Shown here piece by piece: positions 4,204 through 12,123 of a DNA stretch of 14,931 bases. This DNA comes from an uncultured Eubacteriales bacterium (GTDB lineage: Bacteria > Bacillota > Clostridia > Peptostreptococcales > Anaerovoracaceae): positions 1 through 14,931 of the forward strand of contig CACXFN010000110.1 of the NCBI GenBank assembly GCA_902766915.1. Reading direction: 5' to 3'. Position 1 is the first letter of the stretch, and each line of letters starts with the position of its first letter. The notes under the pieces were generated by a model, which saw nothing but the letters and a program-made list of their open reading frames with translations, ran no database searches and was not told where the DNA came from. The translations under genes and the position numbers were made by a program.

Positions 4204-5712
4204 ATGGCACAATTCATTAACGAACCATCCAGGACTTTTAACGAATATTTACTGCTTCCGGGTTATACCAGTAAAGACTGTACAATGGATAATGTCAGTC
4301 TTAGGACACCCATTGTAAAGTTTAAAAAAGGAGAGGAGTCAGCTCTCTATGCAAATATCCCCCTTGTTTCTGCAGTGATGCAGGCTGTATCCGATGATAG
4401 GATGGCCGTTGCATTAGCCAAAGAAGGCGGGATTTCTTTTATCTTCGGATCTCAGCCAATTGAGAGCCAGGCTGAAATGATTAGAAGAGTAAAATCATAT
4501 AAAGCTGGTTTTGTAAAGAGCGACAGTAACCTAAGACCGGATCAAACTATGCAGGATGTTCTGGATTTAAAGAGGCGAAGTGGCCATTCTACCATCGCAA
4601 TTACAGAGGATGGTACCGCCGAAGGGAAAATAGTAGGAATTGTTACCAGCAGAGATTACAGAGTAAGCCGTATGGATCCTGCAACTAAGATAAGCGAGTT
4701 TATGACTCCCTTTGATAAATTGATTTATGCTGAGGATGGAGTGACGCTTTCTGAAGCAAACGATATTCTTTGGGATTATAAACTGAACGCACTTCCGATA
4801 ATAGATAAGAATCAAAGGCTTACTCATTTTGTTTTCAGAAAGGATTACGACAACCACAAATCAAATCCTTTTGAACTCCTTGATGAAGGTAAACGTTATG
4901 TTGTAGGTGCAGGAATCAACAGTCGTGATTATGAGGAAAGGGTACCTGCGCTAGTTGAAGCAGGCGCAGATATTCTCTGTATAGATTCTTCTGAAGGATA
5001 CTCGGAATGGCAAAAGGATACAATAGCCTGGATTCGTTCAAAATATGGAGACAGTGTAAAGGTTGGTGCAGGAAATGTTGTTGATGCCGACGGTTTTAGG
5101 TATCTGGTAGATGCCGGTGCTGACTTTGTAAAAATCGGAATCGGTGGTGGTTCCATATGCATAACCCGTGAGCAAAAGGGTATTGGACGAGGTCAGGCTT
5201 CAGCAGTTATTGAAGTCGCTGAGGCAAGAAAGAAGTATTACGAAGAGACTGGAATCTACGTTCCAATATGCTCGGATGGCGGTATAGTATATGACTACCA
5301 CATGACTTTGGCTTTAGCAATGGGAGCAGACTTCATTATGCTTGGAAGATATTTTGCAAGATTTGATGAATCGCCGACAAACAGACTGAACATCAACGGA
5401 AACTATGTTAAAGAGTATTGGGGAGAAGGCTCCAATAGAGCAAGAAACTGGCAACGTTATGACTTGGGTGGGGATCCAAAAATGAAGTTTGAAGAAGGGG
5501 TGGATTCCTATGTTCCATATGCAGGTCCACTTCATGACAATGTTCAACTCAGTTTAAACAAGGTGAAATCAACTATGTGTAACTGCGGTGTGCTCTCCAT
5601 TACGGAACTACAGGAAAAAGCAAAGCTTACTCTGGTTTCGGCAACATCTATAGTTGAAGGTGGGGCACATGACGTAATCCTTCGTGATTCCAGCCAAAAT
5701 GCAATTAGATAA
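4204..5712 (+). CDS. guaB: IMP dehydrogenase, Tritrichomonas foetus-like type
   Basis: A 502-residue enzyme oxidising IMP to XMP with NAD+, the committed step to GMP. The barrel is interrupted by a CBS pair (about residues 102-220). Catalytic Cys319 lies in [12 protein letters not shown], the flap Arg418-Tyr419 in NWQRYDLGG, the NAD-contacting Asp261 in CIDSSEG and the IMP phosphate site around SDGG (Asp358). These numbers coincide with those of the T. foetus enzyme, and the recalled parasite sequence matches across long blocks. Lys310 and Glu431, which in T. foetus are linked to low mycophenolic acid sensitivity, are also present. The start has AAAGGAG at good spacing. It stands alone with its own promoter, long leader and a downstream terminator. 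The enzyme call is secure. The closeness to the protozoan enzyme rests on memory. Confidence 0.97.
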
Positions 5713-6280: not shown

Positions 6281-7273
6281 CTAGCGATCTTCTCTAAAAT
6301 ACGGAAGCCCTAGACTTTCCGGTGGCTGATTCTCTCTTTTGTTTCTGGTACTTGTTAGTATTAGAACTATGATGGTAACCAAGTATGGGAGCATTTTATA
6401 TAATTCCTTGTTTGCCAAATTCATTCCTGTGGGGATAAAAAGATATAGAATATACAGTCCGCCAAAAAGAATTGAGGCAGGAACACTTAGGCTTGGTCTC
6501 CAGATTGTGAAGATAACCAATGCAATAGCCAGCCAACCTCTGTCGCCAAAACCATCGTTTGACCAAACTCCGTTGGCATAATCCATAACATAGTACAGAC
6601 CGCCCAGACCTGCGATCATACAACCGATGCAGGTGGCGAGGTATTTATATCGGGTAGTATTTATTCCGGCAGCATCTGCAGTGGCTGGGTTTTCGCCAAC
6701 GGCTCTAAGATGAAGTCCTTGACGTGTTTTCTTAAGAAAGTATCCGGCAATGAAAGCTATAATAATTGCCAGATAGGCAAGAAATCCATATGAAAGGAAG
6801 ACTTTCCCGAACCAACCTGTGGATTTTGCAAAGGGGAGGGTTGTTCTAAAAACATTGCTTGTTGCTGAAAGTGCTATGGAAGGCACGTCAGCCCCAGTGA
6901 TTTTAATAAGGGATCCTCCGAAGAAATTTCCAAAACCAACACCAAAGGTTGTCATGGCAAGACCTGTTACATTTTGGTTTGCTCTCAATGTAACTGTTAG
7001 GAAGCAATAAAGTAGACCCATTAAAAGGGATCCTATCAGGCAACAGATGATGGGAATCAGTATTGCCAAAGCGCTGTTCATTCCCGTGCCCTGGGTACTT
7101 CTTTCATATAGAAATGCACCTATAACACCTGATATTCCGCCTACATACATAACACCGGGAATTCCCAGATTAAGGTTGCCTGATTTTTCGGTTATGGTTT
7201 CCCCGACACTTCCGTATAGGAGGGGAATGCTCTGAGCAACGGCTCTTGGTATAAAAGCAATTAAATCAAACAT
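6281..7273 (-). CDS. nupQ: Nucleoside ABC importer permease, NupQ-like
   Basis: A 330-residue polytopic permease of the BPD_transp_2 family (branched-chain amino acid/ribose/BMP type). The signature SGNLNLGIPGVMYVGG (residues 31-46) corresponds to the family's N-LG-EG segment. A cytoplasmic loop, RAVGENPATADAAGI (near residue 200), matches the segment that contacts the ATPase. Nine or so hydrophobic helices are visible. It is the second membrane subunit and its ATG overlaps the stop of the upstream permease (TGATG), with GGAGGG seven bases before it. By order and family it corresponds to NupQ of the Bacillus guanosine importer. Substrate is inferred from the purine context, not from sequence. 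Confidence 0.88.
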   Translation of the reverse strand: MFDLIAFIPRAVAQSIPLLYGSVGETITEKSGNLNLGIPGVMYVGGISGVIGAFLYERSTQGTGMNSALAILIPIICCLIGSLLMGLLYCFLTVTLRANQNVTGLAMTTFGVGFGNFFGGSLIKITGADVPSIALSATSNVFRTTLPFAKSTGWFGKVFLSYGFLAYLAIIIAFIAGYFLKKTRQGLHLRAVGENPATADAAGINTTRYKYLATCIGCMIAGLGGLYYVMDYANGVWSNDGFGDRGWLAIALVIFTIWRPSLSVPASILFGGLYILYLFIPTGMNLANKELYKMLPYLVTIIVLILTSTRNKRENQPPESLGLPYFREDR

Positions 7274-8364
7274 CAGGATTCCCTCCTATTATTCATCAGT
7301 TTATAGTTTATAAAGAATTCACTTCCAATAATGAAGAAGAGAATGATGCCCGTTAATATGTCTCCAAAGCTATGATTCAATCCGAAGGAAGTGGATATTT
7401 CACCGGAGCCTCTGGACATGAAGACCAGGAGGAAACTTGCCAATATCATAACCACTGGATTGAATTTTGCCAGCCAAGCAACCATTACTGCAGTAAAGCC
7501 TCTTCCTCCTGCAATTGTGGTGGTAATGGTATGATCTGTTCCACCGACCAGAAGAAGGCCGGTGAATCCACAGATGGCACCTGAAATCAGCATTGTTCGG
7601 ATGATAACCCGTTCTACTTTTATTCCCACGTAACGAGCGGTATTCTGGCTTTCACCAACTACGCTGATTTCATATCCTTGCTTGCTATACTTTAGATAGA
7701 CATACATTAGAACAGTCATAACAGCTACAATTAGGATATTAAGAAGGTATTTGTATGTTCCTATCTGAGGAAGCCAACCTGCTTCAGTGCTTTGATTAAT
7801 TATTCCAATCTTTCCAGAGCCTTTAGGAACTTCCCAGATGATAACAAAGTATGCAACAAGCTGAGTTGCAACATAGTTCATCATCAAGGTAAACAAGGTT
7901 TCGTTTGTATTCCATCTTGCCTTAAAAATAGCGGGGATAAGAGCCCATACTGCGCCTGCAACTATGGCGGAAATAATCATAAGGGGAATAAGTACTCCAT
8001 TTGGTAGTTTATTACCAAGTAGAATCATGCAAGCAGCTGTTGCAAGCCCGCCGATTAGAATTTGACCTTCGCCGCCCAAATTCCAGAATCGCATTCTAAA
8101 AGCCGGAGTTAAGGCAAGGGCAACTGCCAGAAGAATTGCAATTTCTTGTCCAAGTATCCAGAGCTTTCTGGGGGTGCCAAAGGCGCCTGTAAACATTGCG
8201 CCATAAACATTGAATGGGTTTAACCCGGTGAAAATAGTAGTAATAATACCACAAACTATTAGAGAAATTATGATGGCTATAGCGCGTATGAGTAAAGCCT
8301 TTTGCCAGGGTATAGCACCTCTTTTTGATATATGAAAGAGGGGAGCCTTTGTTTCTTTAGGCAT
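7273..8364 (-). CDS. nupP: Nucleoside ABC importer permease, NupP-like
   Basis: A 363-residue membrane permease of the BPD_transp_2 family. Conserved points are the GLNPFNVYGAMF periplasmic entry segment (48-59), FWNLGGEGQILIGG (93-106) and the ATPase-contact loop VVGESQNTARYVGI. It is longer than its partner because of an N-terminal tail and an extra insertion around KGSGKIGIINQ. The start chosen is the ATG at 8364, preceded by AAGGAGGTG at proper spacing; it overlaps the ATPase stop by eight bases (ATGCCTAA). A longer frame with 17 more residues would overlap the ATPase gene by 59 bases and lacks such a site. It pairs with the downstream permease as a heterodimer. Confidence 0.88.
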   Translation of the reverse strand: MPKETKAPLFHISKRGAIPWQKALLIRAIAIIISLIVCGIITTIFTGLNPFNVYGAMFTGAFGTPRKLWILGQEIAILLAVALALTPAFRMRFWNLGGEGQILIGGLATAACMILLGNKLPNGVLIPLMIISAIVAGAVWALIPAIFKARWNTNETLFTLMMNYVATQLVAYFVIIWEVPKGSGKIGIINQSTEAGWLPQIGTYKYLLNILIVAVMTVLMYVYLKYSKQGYEISVVGESQNTARYVGIKVERVIIRTMLISGAICGFTGLLLVGGTDHTITTTIAGGRGFTAVMVAWLAKFNPVVMILASFLLVFMSRGSGEISTSFGLNHSFGDILTGIILFFIIGSEFFINYKLMNNRRES

Positions 8365-9952
8365 TCTCGGCACCTCCTTCCTTTGGGGCGACTGCTTCAT
8401 TTGAGTCTGCTTCATTTGATTCTGTTAAATCGCCGCCTAGACGTGTCATCATTAACCCCACCTGATTCTTTGTGGCTGTCTTTACGTCTAAAATGCCGCT
8501 AACCTTACCATCGCAAAGAACCAGGATTCTATCGCAGAGTTCCAATAAGACATCCAAATCTTCGCCTACATAAATTACAGCCACACCTTTTTTCTTCTGG
8601 CGATTGATTAAATCATAAATCATATATGAAGAATTAATATCCAAGCCACGAACAGCATATGCAGATAGCAAAACTGTAGGGGCAGAGGAGATCTCTCTTC
8701 CTACCAATACCTTCTGGACGTTTCCGCCGGAAAGACGACGGACTGGAGTTGAGACTCCGGGAGTATTAACTTCCAATTCCTCAACTACTTTTTCTGCAAG
8801 TCCCTTTGGTGTCTTTCTGTCGGTAAACATGGAGCGACCACGTCTAAAGGATCTTAGCATCATGTTATCCGTTAAATCCATACTTGCCACCAAACCCATG
8901 CCAAGTCTGTCTTCCGGTACGAAGGAGAGGGAAACACCCAGATCAGCAATGGCCAAAGGATCTTTTCCTATTAATTGATCTTCGGAACCATCATCCTCAA
9001 TATATTTTATGCTTCCTTTTTCCACTTTCTGAAGACCCGCAATTGCTTCCAGTAGTTCTTTTTGACCACTTCCGGAGATACCTGCTATACCCAGAATCTC
9101 CCCGGTGTTTGCGGTAAAGCTCACGTCGTCCAGTTTCAAAACACCATCAAGATTACGTACAGTAAGGCCTTCGACACGGATGCGCTCCTTAGGATTCTGT
9201 GGCGCGGGTCTTTCTATGTTTAGAGATACTTGATGTCCAACCATCATATTGGTCATCTCCTGTGCATTGGTGTCAGATGTCAGCATTTCTCCAATATATT
9301 CACCCTTTCGTAGAACGGCAACTCTGTCGCTTAAGGCTTCTACTTCGTGAAGCTTGTGAGTGATTATTACAATGGCCTTGCCGTCATCACGCATATTTCT
9401 CAAAACAGCAAATAGCTTATCTGTTTCCTGGGGAGTGAGCACTGCGGTAGGTTCATCCAGAATAAGTATCTCTGCACCCCTATATAGCATTTTTACGATT
9501 TCCACGGTTTGCTTTTGGGATACAGACATATCGTAGATTTTTTGCTTCGGATCCACATCAAATCCATAGGTATTACAGATTTCTTTTATACGAGTCTCTG
9601 CGGCCTTAATGTCCAGTTTCTTTTCATCCTCGATGCCTAGTACAATGTTTTCGGCTGCAGTAAAAACATTCACCAATTTGAAGTGTTGGTGAATCATTCC
9701 GATTCCGTAATCAAAGGCATCCTTTGGGGAGGATATTGTCACCGGTTTTCCATCAACCTCAATTTCTCCACTGTCAGGAAAATATATGCCTGAAAGCATA
9801 TTCATCAAGGTTGTTTTTCCGCTGCCGTTTTCACCAAGGAGGGCAAGTATTTCGTTACGATATATTTCCAAATTAACTCCTTTGTTAGCATTAATTGAAC
9901 CAAAGGATTTGGAGATATTATTCATTCTGACTGCGATTCTCTTTTCCTTCAC
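8357..9952 (-). CDS. nupO: Double-domain ABC ATPase of nucleoside importer, NupO-like
   Basis: A 531-residue protein with two nucleotide-binding domains, powering the BMP-type importer. Domain 1 has Walker A GENGSGKT (40-47), Q-loop at Gln89, a degenerate signature MSVSQKQ, Walker B ILILDEPTA and switch His199. Domain 2 has an altered Walker A GISGSGQK (291-298), a good signature LSGGNVQK (407-414) and a degraded Walker B, TVLLSAYAVRGLD, lacking the usual Pro and acidic residue. So only one hydrolysis site looks complete, as is common in this subfamily. The start is the GTG at 9952 with GGAGG four bases upstream; an ATG nine codons earlier has no ribosome site. It overlaps the next permease by eight bases. 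Confidence 0.92.
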   Translation of the reverse strand: MKEKRIAVRMNNISKSFGSINANKGVNLEIYRNEILALLGENGSGKTTLMNMLSGIYFPDSGEIEVDGKPVTISSPKDAFDYGIGMIHQHFKLVNVFTAAENIVLGIEDEKKLDIKAAETRIKEICNTYGFDVDPKQKIYDMSVSQKQTVEIVKMLYRGAEILILDEPTAVLTPQETDKLFAVLRNMRDDGKAIVIITHKLHEVEALSDRVAVLRKGEYIGEMLTSDTNAQEMTNMMVGHQVSLNIERPAPQNPKERIRVEGLTVRNLDGVLKLDDVSFTANTGEILGIAGISGSGQKELLEAIAGLQKVEKGSIKYIEDDGSEDQLIGKDPLAIADLGVSLSFVPEDRLGMGLVASMDLTDNMMLRSFRRGRSMFTDRKTPKGLAEKVVEELEVNTPGVSTPVRRLSGGNVQKVLVGREISSAPTVLLSAYAVRGLDINSSYMIYDLINRQKKKGVAVIYVGEDLDVLLELCDRILVLCDGKVSGILDVKTATKNQVGLMMTRLGGDLTESNEADSNEAVAPKEGGAENA

Positions 9953-10006
9953 GTTTCCTCCAAAACACTTAGGGAGCATTAAAGAATGATTCCCGAAAAT
10001 GGTTAA

Positions 10007-10077: not shown

Positions 10078-11334
10078 TTAGAATGCTGTATCCAAGAGGT
10101 TTATTCCATCAATCTGGAGGTCGAAGTAAGGAGCTGATCTATATTCTGATTCATGGAAGAATCCATCTGCAATTACTTCTGTATCGCCTTCATATGCAGG
10201 ATCTGTATTGACGTCTGCCATATAGCTACTCATGGCTTTTCCATCTACAGTGAAGTTTGCTGTATCAAATACGTGGATTGTTCCGGATTCTAATGCTGCT
10301 TTAACTTCTTCAAGTTTTTCTGCTGTACCTGCTGCAGCAGCATTTTCATTTACTTCCGTAAGTTGTACAGAGTTGGTCTGAAGGGTTCCGGTCCAGTCAG
10401 CATCAATGGGTTCACCAGCTGCTTTTGCACTGATTACATATTCGTAATAGGGAGTCCAATTGATTTTGGAGGAAACAATGAATGTGTTTGGACAAGCATC
10501 AATTGTGCTTCCGTTATATGATACGTTTGGCACTCCTGCATTCTCACAAGCAGTAGGTGCACCCATGGAGTCAGCATGCTGACTTATAAGCTTACAACCG
10601 CCGTTAATCAGATTTGTTGCAGCTTCCTTTTCTGCCGTTTCATCATACCAAGAACCTGTGAATGTTACATCCATGGTTACTTCAGGAACAATGGACTTAG
10701 CACCAAGGTAGAAGGATGTGTAACCGGATACTACTTCTGCGTATGTGTATGCACCTATATAGCCCATTTTCGCTTCATTGGCTGTGAATTCTCCTGCATC
10801 AATCATTTCCTGAAGCTTAAGTCCTGCAGCAACACCAGCCAGGTAACGTCCTTCATAAATTGATGCAAATGCATTGTGGTAATTTGCCACACCTTCTGTG
10901 TGAGCCTTTGTTCCTGTTGAATGGCAGAACTCCACGTCCGGGAATTCTTTTGCTGCCTGAATCATATAATCTTCATGACCAAAGGAGTCAGCAAATATTA
11001 CTGTGCATCCTGCGTCTGCTAATTCTGCAGCTGAATCATAGCATTCCTGACCTTCGGGAATGTTTGTCTTTATCATGTAGTTTTCTTCTGGAATACCCAG
11101 ATTAGCGCAGGCTTCTTTTGCAGCGTTGATAAAGTTAAGATCGTAGGTTGAGTTTTCATCGTGCAGGCAGATGAATCCAACCTTAATACTATCCAACCCG
11201 CCGGCTTCCGCACCGCCGGATGCGTCTGAACTTCCGGAGCTGCCGGATCCGGAATTACCACCGCCACATGCAGTTAGCATTCCAACGGCAGCAAGGACAA
11301 CAATCAAGATTAAAACCAAACTTCTCTTTTTCAT
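10078..11334 (-). CDS. nupN: BMP-family nucleoside-binding lipoprotein
   Basis: A 418-residue substrate-binding lipoprotein of the Bmp/PnrA family. A lipoprotein signal ends in MLTAC (lipid on Cys23), followed by a Gly/Ser linker (about 24-45). The mature domain starts with SIKVGFICLHDENSTYDLNFINAA, the family's N-terminal strand with its ligand-contacting segment, and includes MGYIGAYTYAEVVSGYTSFYLGAKSI and the ISQHADSMGAP loop. PnrA/BmpA relatives bind purine or mixed ribonucleosides and hand them to the permeases encoded next. It is longer than PnrA because of a C-terminal extension. GGAGG lies six bases before the ATG; it follows xpt by 37 bases and is separated from the ATPase by a hairpin. 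Confidence 0.92.
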   Translation of the reverse strand: MKKRSLVLILIVVLAAVGMLTACGGGNSGSGSSGSSDASGGAEAGGLDSIKVGFICLHDENSTYDLNFINAAKEACANLGIPEENYMIKTNIPEGQECYDSAAELADAGCTVIFADSFGHEDYMIQAAKEFPDVEFCHSTGTKAHTEGVANYHNAFASIYEGRYLAGVAAGLKLQEMIDAGEFTANEAKMGYIGAYTYAEVVSGYTSFYLGAKSIVPEVTMDVTFTGSWYDETAEKEAATNLINGGCKLISQHADSMGAPTACENAGVPNVSYNGSTIDACPNTFIVSSKINWTPYYEYVISAKAAGEPIDADWTGTLQTNSVQLTEVNENAAAAGTAEKLEEVKAALESGTIHVFDTANFTVDGKAMSSYMADVNTDPAYEGDTEVIADGFFHESEYRSAPYFDLQIDGINLLDTAF

Positions 11335-11371: not shown

Positions 11372-11941
11372 TTAACGGAAAATTATTTCCGTATCTGTCA
11401 TAGATTCAACAGCTGCCAATGCTTCAATTCTTACACCATCTGCGCGAAGTCTGTCACCGCCATCCTGAAAACATTTTTCTATTGCCACTGCACAGCCAAC
11501 CAGGTGAGCATTTGCTTGTTCAATAAGTTCAATTAGTCCGCGGAGAGCATTTCCATTGGCAAGGAAGTCATCAATTATCAAAACCCGGTCGTTTTCGGTC
11601 AGATATTCGCAACTCACAATAATGTTGTAATCTTCATTATGTGTGAATGAGTGTACTTTGGAAGAATAAGCATTTCCGTCCACATTGCTGGTTTTATGTT
11701 TTTTTGCGAATACAACAGGTACTTCCATGGCCATCCCTGTTGCAATAGCAAGGGGAATGCCGCTTGATTCAATGGTGAGGATTTTAGTTACATCTGAGTC
11801 CTCATAATGCCACTTAATTTCCTCAGCCATTTCTCCCAGGAATCCAGTATCGATTTGCTGATTAAGGAAATTTCCAACCTTCAGGATTCCGCCGGGAAGA
11901 ACCTTGCCTTCTGTTTGGATTTTTTCTTCCATTCTTCGCAT
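11372..11941 (-). CDS. xpt: Xanthine phosphoribosyltransferase
   Basis: A 189-residue enzyme converting xanthine and PRPP to XMP, close to Bacillus Xpt in length and sequence. Seen are VLPGGILKVGNFLNQQID near the start, TIESSGIPLAIATG, PVVFAKKHKT and the PRPP loop VLIIDDFLANGNA (120-132), with IEKCFQDGGDRL following. The start chosen is the ATG at 11941 with TTTGGAG six bases upstream. A TTG four codons earlier would lie inside that site. It is the first gene of the operon after a guanine-type riboswitch, so it should be shut off when guanine is plentiful, together with the importer genes that follow. Confidence 0.95.
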   Translation of the reverse strand: MRRMEEKIQTEGKVLPGGILKVGNFLNQQIDTGFLGEMAEEIKWHYEDSDVTKILTIESSGIPLAIATGMAMEVPVVFAKKHKTSNVDGNAYSSKVHSFTHNEDYNIIVSCEYLTENDRVLIIDDFLANGNALRGLIELIEQANAHLVGCAVAIEKCFQDGGDRLRADGVRIEALAAVESMTDTEIIFR

Positions 11942-11951
11942 GTATATCTCC

Positions 11952-11984
11952 AAAAAATCAATATGACAGACTTAATTGTCTGCC
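11952..11984 (-). terminator. Riboswitch-controlled terminator before xpt
   Basis: GGCAGAC / GUCUGUC (11965-11984, one G-U pair) with an AAUUAA loop; U-A can extend it. Seven bases then separate it from UUUUUU (11952-11957), which runs straight into the xpt Shine-Dalgarno. The left arm is also the target of an antiterminator: UAUUGGCA (11981-11988) is fully complementary to UGCCAAUA at 12097-12104. The distance to the U-run is longer than ideal, so control of ribosome access cannot be excluded. Confidence 0.7.
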
Positions 11985-12038
11985 AATACTTGAATCAATA
12001 TGCGACAACTTTCTTAACAACAAAGTCGCCCCATCGAA

Positions 12039-12102
12039 CCAATAGTCGTGCATAGGGCTGCACGGTAGAAACATTCGGGCCATTAATCCGAACCTATATT
12101 GG
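12039..12102 (-). promoter_or_regulatory. Guanine-type purine riboswitch aptamer upstream of xpt
   Basis: P1 is CCAAUA/UAUUGG. J1/2 begins UAG. P2 is GUUCGG with CCGAAU. J2/3 is the diagnostic GUUUCUACC (position 51 = U). P3 is a perfect 6-bp CGUGCA/UGCACG. J3/1 is GACUAU, with C at position 74, the guanine rather than adenine choice. Loops differ from the usual: L2 reads AUUAAUGG, L3 reads GCCCUA and is one base short. The GG/CC pair needed for loop-loop docking is kept. Numbering follows the Bacillus xpt aptamer. Binding of guanine (or hypoxanthine) should hold P1 and free the downstream terminator. Confidence 0.9.
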
Positions 12103-12123
12103 CAATTATTATTATGTGACAGG

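Follow-up and report, generated by a model that had tools for sequence, protein, structure and literature searches.

A guanine-type riboswitch before xpt in an uncultured Anaerovoracaceae bacterium, with a putative third L2-L3 kissing pair and predicted P1 5'-strand switching

The window, by which we mean the whole stretch of 14,931 nucleotides that was analysed, carries a purine riboswitch aptamer on its minus strand, behind which the gene order is xpt, a PnrA-type lipoprotein gene, an ABC ATPase gene and two permease genes (Table 1). The Rfam Purine model, RF00167, matches positions 12121-12023 (-) over its full length (1-102) with a score of 49.8 bits (E 4.9e-6). This exceeds the gathering score of 37 bits in the minus-strand search that a sequence-only reading of this DNA, which had called a guanine-type riboswitch here, proposed. 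The window's genome, which is 76.93% complete, holds a single RF00167 match, the one before xpt. An IMP dehydrogenase gene at window positions 4204-5712 (+) has no Rfam match before it at the gathering score. Divergent from the riboswitch is a barnase-barstar pair, in which a barnase-like ribonuclease-domain protein with a lipoprotein-like start (PF00545, 12345-12938, +) is followed by a Barstar-family gene (PF01337, 13005-13358, +).

Table 1. Riboswitch parts and downstream genes, in window coordinates
Feature	Position	Strand	Basis
P1 5' strand ('P' strand) UGCCAAUA	12097..12104	-	RF00167 alignment and sequence
P1 5' strand plus U22 (12096), alternative pairing with 11989-11981		-	complementarity
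J1/2 UAG (U22 A23 G24)	12094..12096	-	RF00167 and sequence
P2 5' strand GUUCGG	12088..12093	-	RF00167 and sequence
L2 region A31-UUAAUGG-C39; proposed kissing strand GGC (G37, G38, C39)	12079..12087	-	covariation and sequence
P2 3' strand CCGAAU	12073..12078	-	RF00167 and sequence
J2/3 GUUUCUAC, 8 nt, guanine-type; U51 is 12067	12065..12072	-	RF00167 and sequence
P3 5' strand CGUGCA	12059..12064	-	RF00167 and sequence
L3 GCCCUA, 6 nt; proposed kissing strand GCC (G60 C61 C62)	12053..12058	-	covariation and sequence
P3 3' strand UGCACG	12047..12052	-	RF00167 and sequence
J3/1 A73 C74; C74, guanine specificity	12045..12046	-	RF00167 and sequence
P1 3' strand ('A' strand) UAUUGGUU	12037..12044	-	RF00167 and sequence
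Hairpin in the spacer that separates the aptamer from the T strand	12002..12029	-	predicted fold and sequence
Switching ('T') strand GUAUUGGCA, near copy of P1 3' strand	11981..11989	-	complementarity
Intrinsic terminator stem-loop UGGCAGAC-AAUUAA-GUCUGUCA; 5' arm overlaps T strand	11964..11985	-	predicted
U-rich terminator tail UAUUGAUUUUUUGG	11950..11963	-	
xpt, xanthine phosphoribosyltransferase, controlled gene	11372..11941	-	NCBIfam NF006671, 241.9 bits (cut-off 177)
PnrA/Bmp-type nucleoside-binding lipoprotein, second gene of probable operon	10078..11334	-	Pfam PF02608
Probable importer of purine nucleosides: one ABC ATPase, two permeases	6281..9979	-	Pfam PF00005, PF02653

The junction features of guanine-I riboswitches are present in the window aptamer, namely U22, U51 and C74 together with an intact 8-nt J2/3 and a 2-nt J3/1 (UAG / GUUUCUAC / AC). 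With these features, the Rfam score and xpt downstream, the guanine-type core described in the sequence-only reading is upheld. Its mention of a perfect P1 and P3 holds for P3 but not for P1, which has an outermost U-U mismatch and then a G-U pair. The canonical guanine-I loops (AUAUGG with CCGUAAA, joined by two base quadruples) are absent, L2 being UUAAUGG and L3 GCCCUA; the departure from the GAUAUGG/CCGUAAA pattern, the A-C opposition atop P2 and the 6-nt L3 are all as had been noted. Canonical L2 and L3 are a trait of the usual guanine-I members; what defines the class is the pocket, to which these loops do not belong.

Purine riboswitches serve as a standard model for the preparation of a binding site by docking of peripheral loops. 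In the window aptamer, both the pair at the top of P2 (A31, C39) and the pair that closes L3 (G60 and the A that ends the loop and stands opposite it) are non-standard, and C39 and G60 are complementary to one another, which would extend the GG:CC loop contact to a three-pair GGC:GCC. Among homologues this extra pair recurs. We compared two sets of aptamers, both hand-picked with their loops already known: in A1 (n=21), positions 39 and 60 pair in 19, the P2-top positions in 6 and the L3-closing positions in none; in A2 (n=35), which draws on several families, positions 39 and 60 pair in 33 (CG19, UA5, UG5, GC3, AU1), with the rival P2-top pair (columns 21-32) present in 7 of 34 and the rival L3-closing pair (columns 56-64) in 1 of 35. 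The covariation score for 39-60 in A2 is 0.921 as compared with 0.306 (sd 0.080) after shuffling, with 0 of 500 shuffles as high, and sliding the columns by one to three positions gives at most 0.324; the aptamer sequences share ancestry, and the permutation figures reported here for covariation and for strand coupling are not to be read as probabilities. The sequence-only reading had held that only the GG-CC pairs remain and had proposed looking for covariation of the loops. The covariation is there, and with C39-G60 as a covarying third pair the former statement is not supported.

A broader count agrees. The loops were parsed in 256 of 305 loci, 48 giving no fold and one no GG/CC; the 48 include some chance pattern matches and some true aptamers, such as L026, L070 (A39, G60) and L068. 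Where L3 is open, the CC is at its standard place and the parse is unique, 50 of 54 aptamers are complementary at 39-60 (CG20, UA17, UG10, GC3), and the misses are C-A, G-A, A-G and U-U. Of the open-L3 aptamers with C39, 20 of 21 have G60, as against 4 of 27 where L3 is closed. In a wider cut, which counts the A2 member L159 as closed-L3, 62 of 70 unique open-L3 aptamers are complementary and 8 are not. Since U39 complements either purine and pyrimidines are rare at nucleotide 60, a large share of these matches is automatic, and the weight of the case rests on C-G versus C-A plus a few G-C cases. The A-U of L159 might instead be a seventh P3 pair, the G-A opposition at the end of L3 could be a sheared pair and the A-C opposition atop P2 a wobble. 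On the sequence evidence, the strongest single points for a third pair are two double changes within families, C-G in L126 versus U-A in L127 (f20) and U-A in L173 versus G-C in L175 (f50). We also considered a general rule in which nucleotide 39 pairs with nucleotide 60 whenever 31-39 is open: 48 of 49 closed-L3 aptamers fit, but 47 of the 49 have U31-U39, and because U39 fits either purine we give this agreement no weight.

RF00167 matches recur too often for the one in the window to be due to chance. Of 61 genomes, comprising that of the window and 60 relatives, 26 have one; within the window's family 51 of 349 do, 50 of them above the cut-off. The 60 matches listed in the window's family score 35.1-63.8 bits, whereas in the order's other families scores rise to 98.5 bits, indicating that a low score is a family trait. 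An 18-nt P3 hairpin is found in 20 of 37 aptamers in the window's family as compared with 0 of 38 in the order's other families, counted after removal of identical loop pairs and with the 38 being mostly best-scoring matches, a sample tilted to the canonical type. L025, from another genome of the same genus, carries an identical L3 GCCCUA, which makes a sequencing or one-off error unlikely. The sequence-only reading had named two observations that would speak against atypical loops. One was a high covariance-model score with these loops common, and the window's score is in fact low beside canonical relatives. The other was a one-off change among homologues with ordinary loops; same-genus relatives share this loop type, although the wider family is mixed, L031, L035, L036 and L042 having near-ordinary loops.

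Beyond the family, we built a model, R1, from 21 aptamers (20 of the window's family and one of another). It has matches in 114 of the 391 class genomes, a set that is tilted to R1's own members since the model favours their letters, and many of the inspected matches are ordinary aptamers; L124-L127, which match best outside the family, have the same loop type. A phylum-wide search by sequence pattern matched 18 of 398 genomes and added L295, one further example in another family of the phylum. Judged by sequence, the loops of the window represent a recurrent architecture. The records matched by a related pattern in genome contigs are nearly all metagenome-assembled, and their titles include goat jejunum (2) and water deer omasum (1). 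In L022 and L026, of the window's genus, L3 is enlarged by a hairpin-like insert after GCC and GGC/GCC is kept, and L068 (G195) is a purine riboswitch with a long L2 insert and no clear GGC/GCC pair.

Downstream of the aptamer, GUAUUGGCA can pair with the P1 5' strand plus U22 at 9 of 9 positions, one of them a G-U. The same arrangement is found in L025 and L055 (9 of 9 positions) and L020 (8 of 9), and in L124 and L126, where P1 is UACCAAUA and the downstream stretch UAUUGGUA, both sides are changed relative to the window. In 32 of 51 open-L3 leaders, versus 19 of 93 others, some downstream stretch can pair with the P1 5' strand over at least 8 of the 9 positions. Permutation in 50 open-L3 leaders gave an own-strand mean of 16.36 for the 5' strand as compared with 13.91 (sd 0.35), 0 of 2000 permutations being as high; no coupling of the 3' strand was seen in the same 50 leaders (218 of 2000 as high). 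The 93 other leaders display the reverse, with coupling of the 3' strand (2 of 2000 as high) and none of the 5' strand (292 of 2000). Ten group B leaders, of genus g79, were set aside from this test; including them gives 16.89 versus 13.71, and again 0 of 2000 permutations reach the observed mean. When the window is taken by itself, its P strand finds an equally good match in 4 of 200 shuffled downstream sequences. The 5'-strand coupling thus appears as a group trend of open-L3 leaders. It is weak or absent in members of f50 and f51 and in several of the window's own family, among them L019, L023, L033, L034, L044 and L062, and because of these cases we dropped a strict link between loops and platform.

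Folding energies predict a balance that shifts as transcription proceeds. As long as the terminator lacks its 3' arm, the predicted energies favour the alternative helix by 8.3-9.2 kcal/mol; when that arm has just been made, by 1.7 kcal/mol; and in the full-length leader they favour P1 plus terminator by 1.3 kcal/mol. The unconstrained lowest-energy fold of a 164-nt piece (-49.5) corresponds to neither switch state, and that of a 181-nt piece contains both P1 and the terminator stem.

The purine connection extends to related leaders. Nine of ten first downstream proteins scanned with Pfam in the open-L3 set and its close kin belong to purine-related families (NCS2-type permease, 2; Bmp lipoprotein, 2; AIR carboxylase/PurE, 3; IMP dehydrogenase, 1; phosphoribosyltransferase, 1), and that of L125 had no Pfam match at the cut-off used. 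The first downstream ORF of L156, judged by eye, has a flavoprotein-like start and is not obviously a purine gene, and L295 has no downstream ORF within the available DNA.

We consider it probable that the element is a guanine-sensing transcriptional OFF switch before xpt, with a remodelled loop kiss and switching through the P1 5' strand. The aptamer, gene, loop covariation, strand complementarity, terminator and energy balance are computed, and from them we infer the ligand, the loop geometry and the direction of switching, in which guanine turns xpt off. In the proposed mechanism, L2 GGC would pair with L3 GCC through three Watson-Crick pairs in a compact contact, C39 and G60 being released from their usual partners atop P2 and P3, and this kiss would replace the ordinary two pairs and base quadruples of guanine riboswitches. 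Without guanine, the P1 5' strand would pair with 11989-11981, the near-copy of the P1 3' strand, and the resulting helix would sequester the 5' arm of the terminator so that transcription continues. With guanine, P1 would be held, the downstream strand would be freed and the terminator at 11985-11964 would form, turning xpt off. The purine-nucleoside transporter genes after xpt are probably under the same control. We hold this explanation slightly less firmly because 19 of the 51 open-L3 leaders have no clear 5'-strand match. As far as the sequence indicates, ligand and gene are ordinary, and loop docking and the switching strand are what is unusual.

The element can be compared with known riboswitches. 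Like guanine-I (RF00167), the window has a three-way junction, J2/3 GUUUCUAC, C74, GG-CC loop pairs, a purine-salvage gene and a downstream terminator. It differs in lacking the two-quadruple loop pattern, in its 6-nt L3, in the open top pairs of P2 and P3, in its putative third kissing pair and in an antiterminator that would use the 5' rather than the 3' strand of P1. The guanine OFF switch of B. subtilis yxjA likewise chooses between antiterminator and terminator by exchange of a P1 strand, but its central helix apparently takes the 3' side, as the available text of PMC9756952 describes it, whereas that of the window would take the 5' side. Guanine-II and xanthine-II riboswitches share the three-way junction and purine genes; they are described as having one or two extra nucleotides in J2/3 (PMC9295807), whereas the 8-nt J2/3 of the window has no insertion. 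The C51 and two-nucleotide J3/1 insertion reported for 2'-dG-II (PMC8872408) are also absent, the window having U51 and a J3/1 of AC.

The likeness to 2'-dG-I is greater than the sequence-only reading had suggested. The Mesoplasma florum riboswitch is described as having L2 AUAAUGG, which is identical to the window's loop at 6 of 7 positions, an 18-nt P3 hairpin, the same length as in the window, and a short L3, CCUA (PMC5838219). Short L3 and altered kissing loops are thus 2'-dG-I traits that the window shares. So, by complementarity and predicted energy, is an antiterminator in which the P1 5' strand joins a downstream T strand shared with the terminator, as the available sections of PMC5838219 describe for 2'-dG-I; the window's platform would follow the P/A/T/H logic set out there. 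The two differ in the junction, which is guanine-type in the window and changed in 2'-dG-I, where position 51 is C (C58; PMC8872408) and not the U51 of GUUUCUAC, and in the gene, xpt here and ribonucleotide reductase there (PMC12268651). In the parts of the literature examined, neither a three-pair L2-L3 kiss nor a 5'-strand antiterminator is described for guanine riboswitches; Pikovskaya 2011, Edwards and Batey 2009 and Stoddard 2013 fall outside that coverage, and the absence is unproven.

Given this likeness, the loops might dock as in M. florum 2'-dG-I, in the 'key and lock' manner described in the available text of PMC11251524, with no third pair. Two G-C loop pairs would form and an L3 adenine would stack into L2 (PMC11251524, PMC8872408), while A31-C39 and G60-A would close the loops as non-canonical pairs. 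In addition to the shared L2 and P3 hairpin length, 50 of 54 open aptamers have an A opposite nucleotide 60, so that an adenine contact of this sort could form in the window too. However, this model does not predict that C39/G60, U39/A60 and G39/C60 change together, and in M. florum both 31-39 and 60-67 are standard pairs (according to what is available of PMC5838219), so it has no third kissing pair. We regard docking of this kind as unlikely, though it is the most serious of the alternatives to the three-pair kiss.

Much less probable still is a changed ligand, whether 2'-dG, xanthine or another, as the sequence-only reading had entertained. The loop likeness to 2'-dG-I and G24 in J1/2 could be read in this way, but U22, U51, C74, the 8-nt J2/3 and the 2-nt J3/1 are all guanine-type, known ligand-changed variants are described as altering the joining regions (PMC9295807), and the genes downstream, xpt here and nine of the ten scanned in relatives, are ordinary purine genes. 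That the aptamer is decaying or non-functional, with eroded loops, is similarly improbable. Its 49.8 bits are low next to the 98.5 bits reached in the order's canonical relatives, but P1, P2 and P3 covary strongly among relatives, and a terminator with a switching strand (8 or 9 of 9 positions) accompanies the aptamer in L020, L025, L055, L124, L125, L126 and L161.

If the loops of the window do form a three-pair kiss, the element would be a natural union of short, 2'-dG-I-like loops with a guanine pocket, for which a third pair apparently compensates. Placing loops of the 2'-dG-I kind on a guanine riboswitch is reported to weaken guanine binding more than 50-fold (available part of PMC8872408). 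The role of loop docking could here be tested by swapping two bases in a natural switch, and the combination points to loops, platform and ligand choice as parts whose types can be recombined. More tentatively, and with less confidence than we place in the switch itself, we suggest that the three-pair kiss may be an extra L2/L3 docking mode with more than one origin in Clostridia (the window-like aptamers and those of f50/f51), in which the window-like lineage often has a P1 5'-strand platform, as 2'-dG-I does. Were this so, peripheral docking and the switching strand would be separable from the choice of ligand, and 2'-dG-I may owe its loops and platform to such a guanine riboswitch.

Two further loop types were observed among the loci collected. 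In other families, L2 and L3 are each one base shorter together by eye (for example AAUUGG/CCGUAA and AAUAGG/CCGGAA), a coupled shortening present at L284-L286, L289-L294, L296-L299 and L165-L169. Genus g79 has a second riboswitch type (L039, L040, L043, L046-L050, L052, L053, L056 and L061) in which three junction-side P3 pairs are followed by G-A, C-A and G-A opposites and a nearly constant loop, CCGAAAA. Six of the ten g79 leaders counted have all 9 of 9 P1 5'-strand positions matched downstream, and L039 lies upstream of purE.
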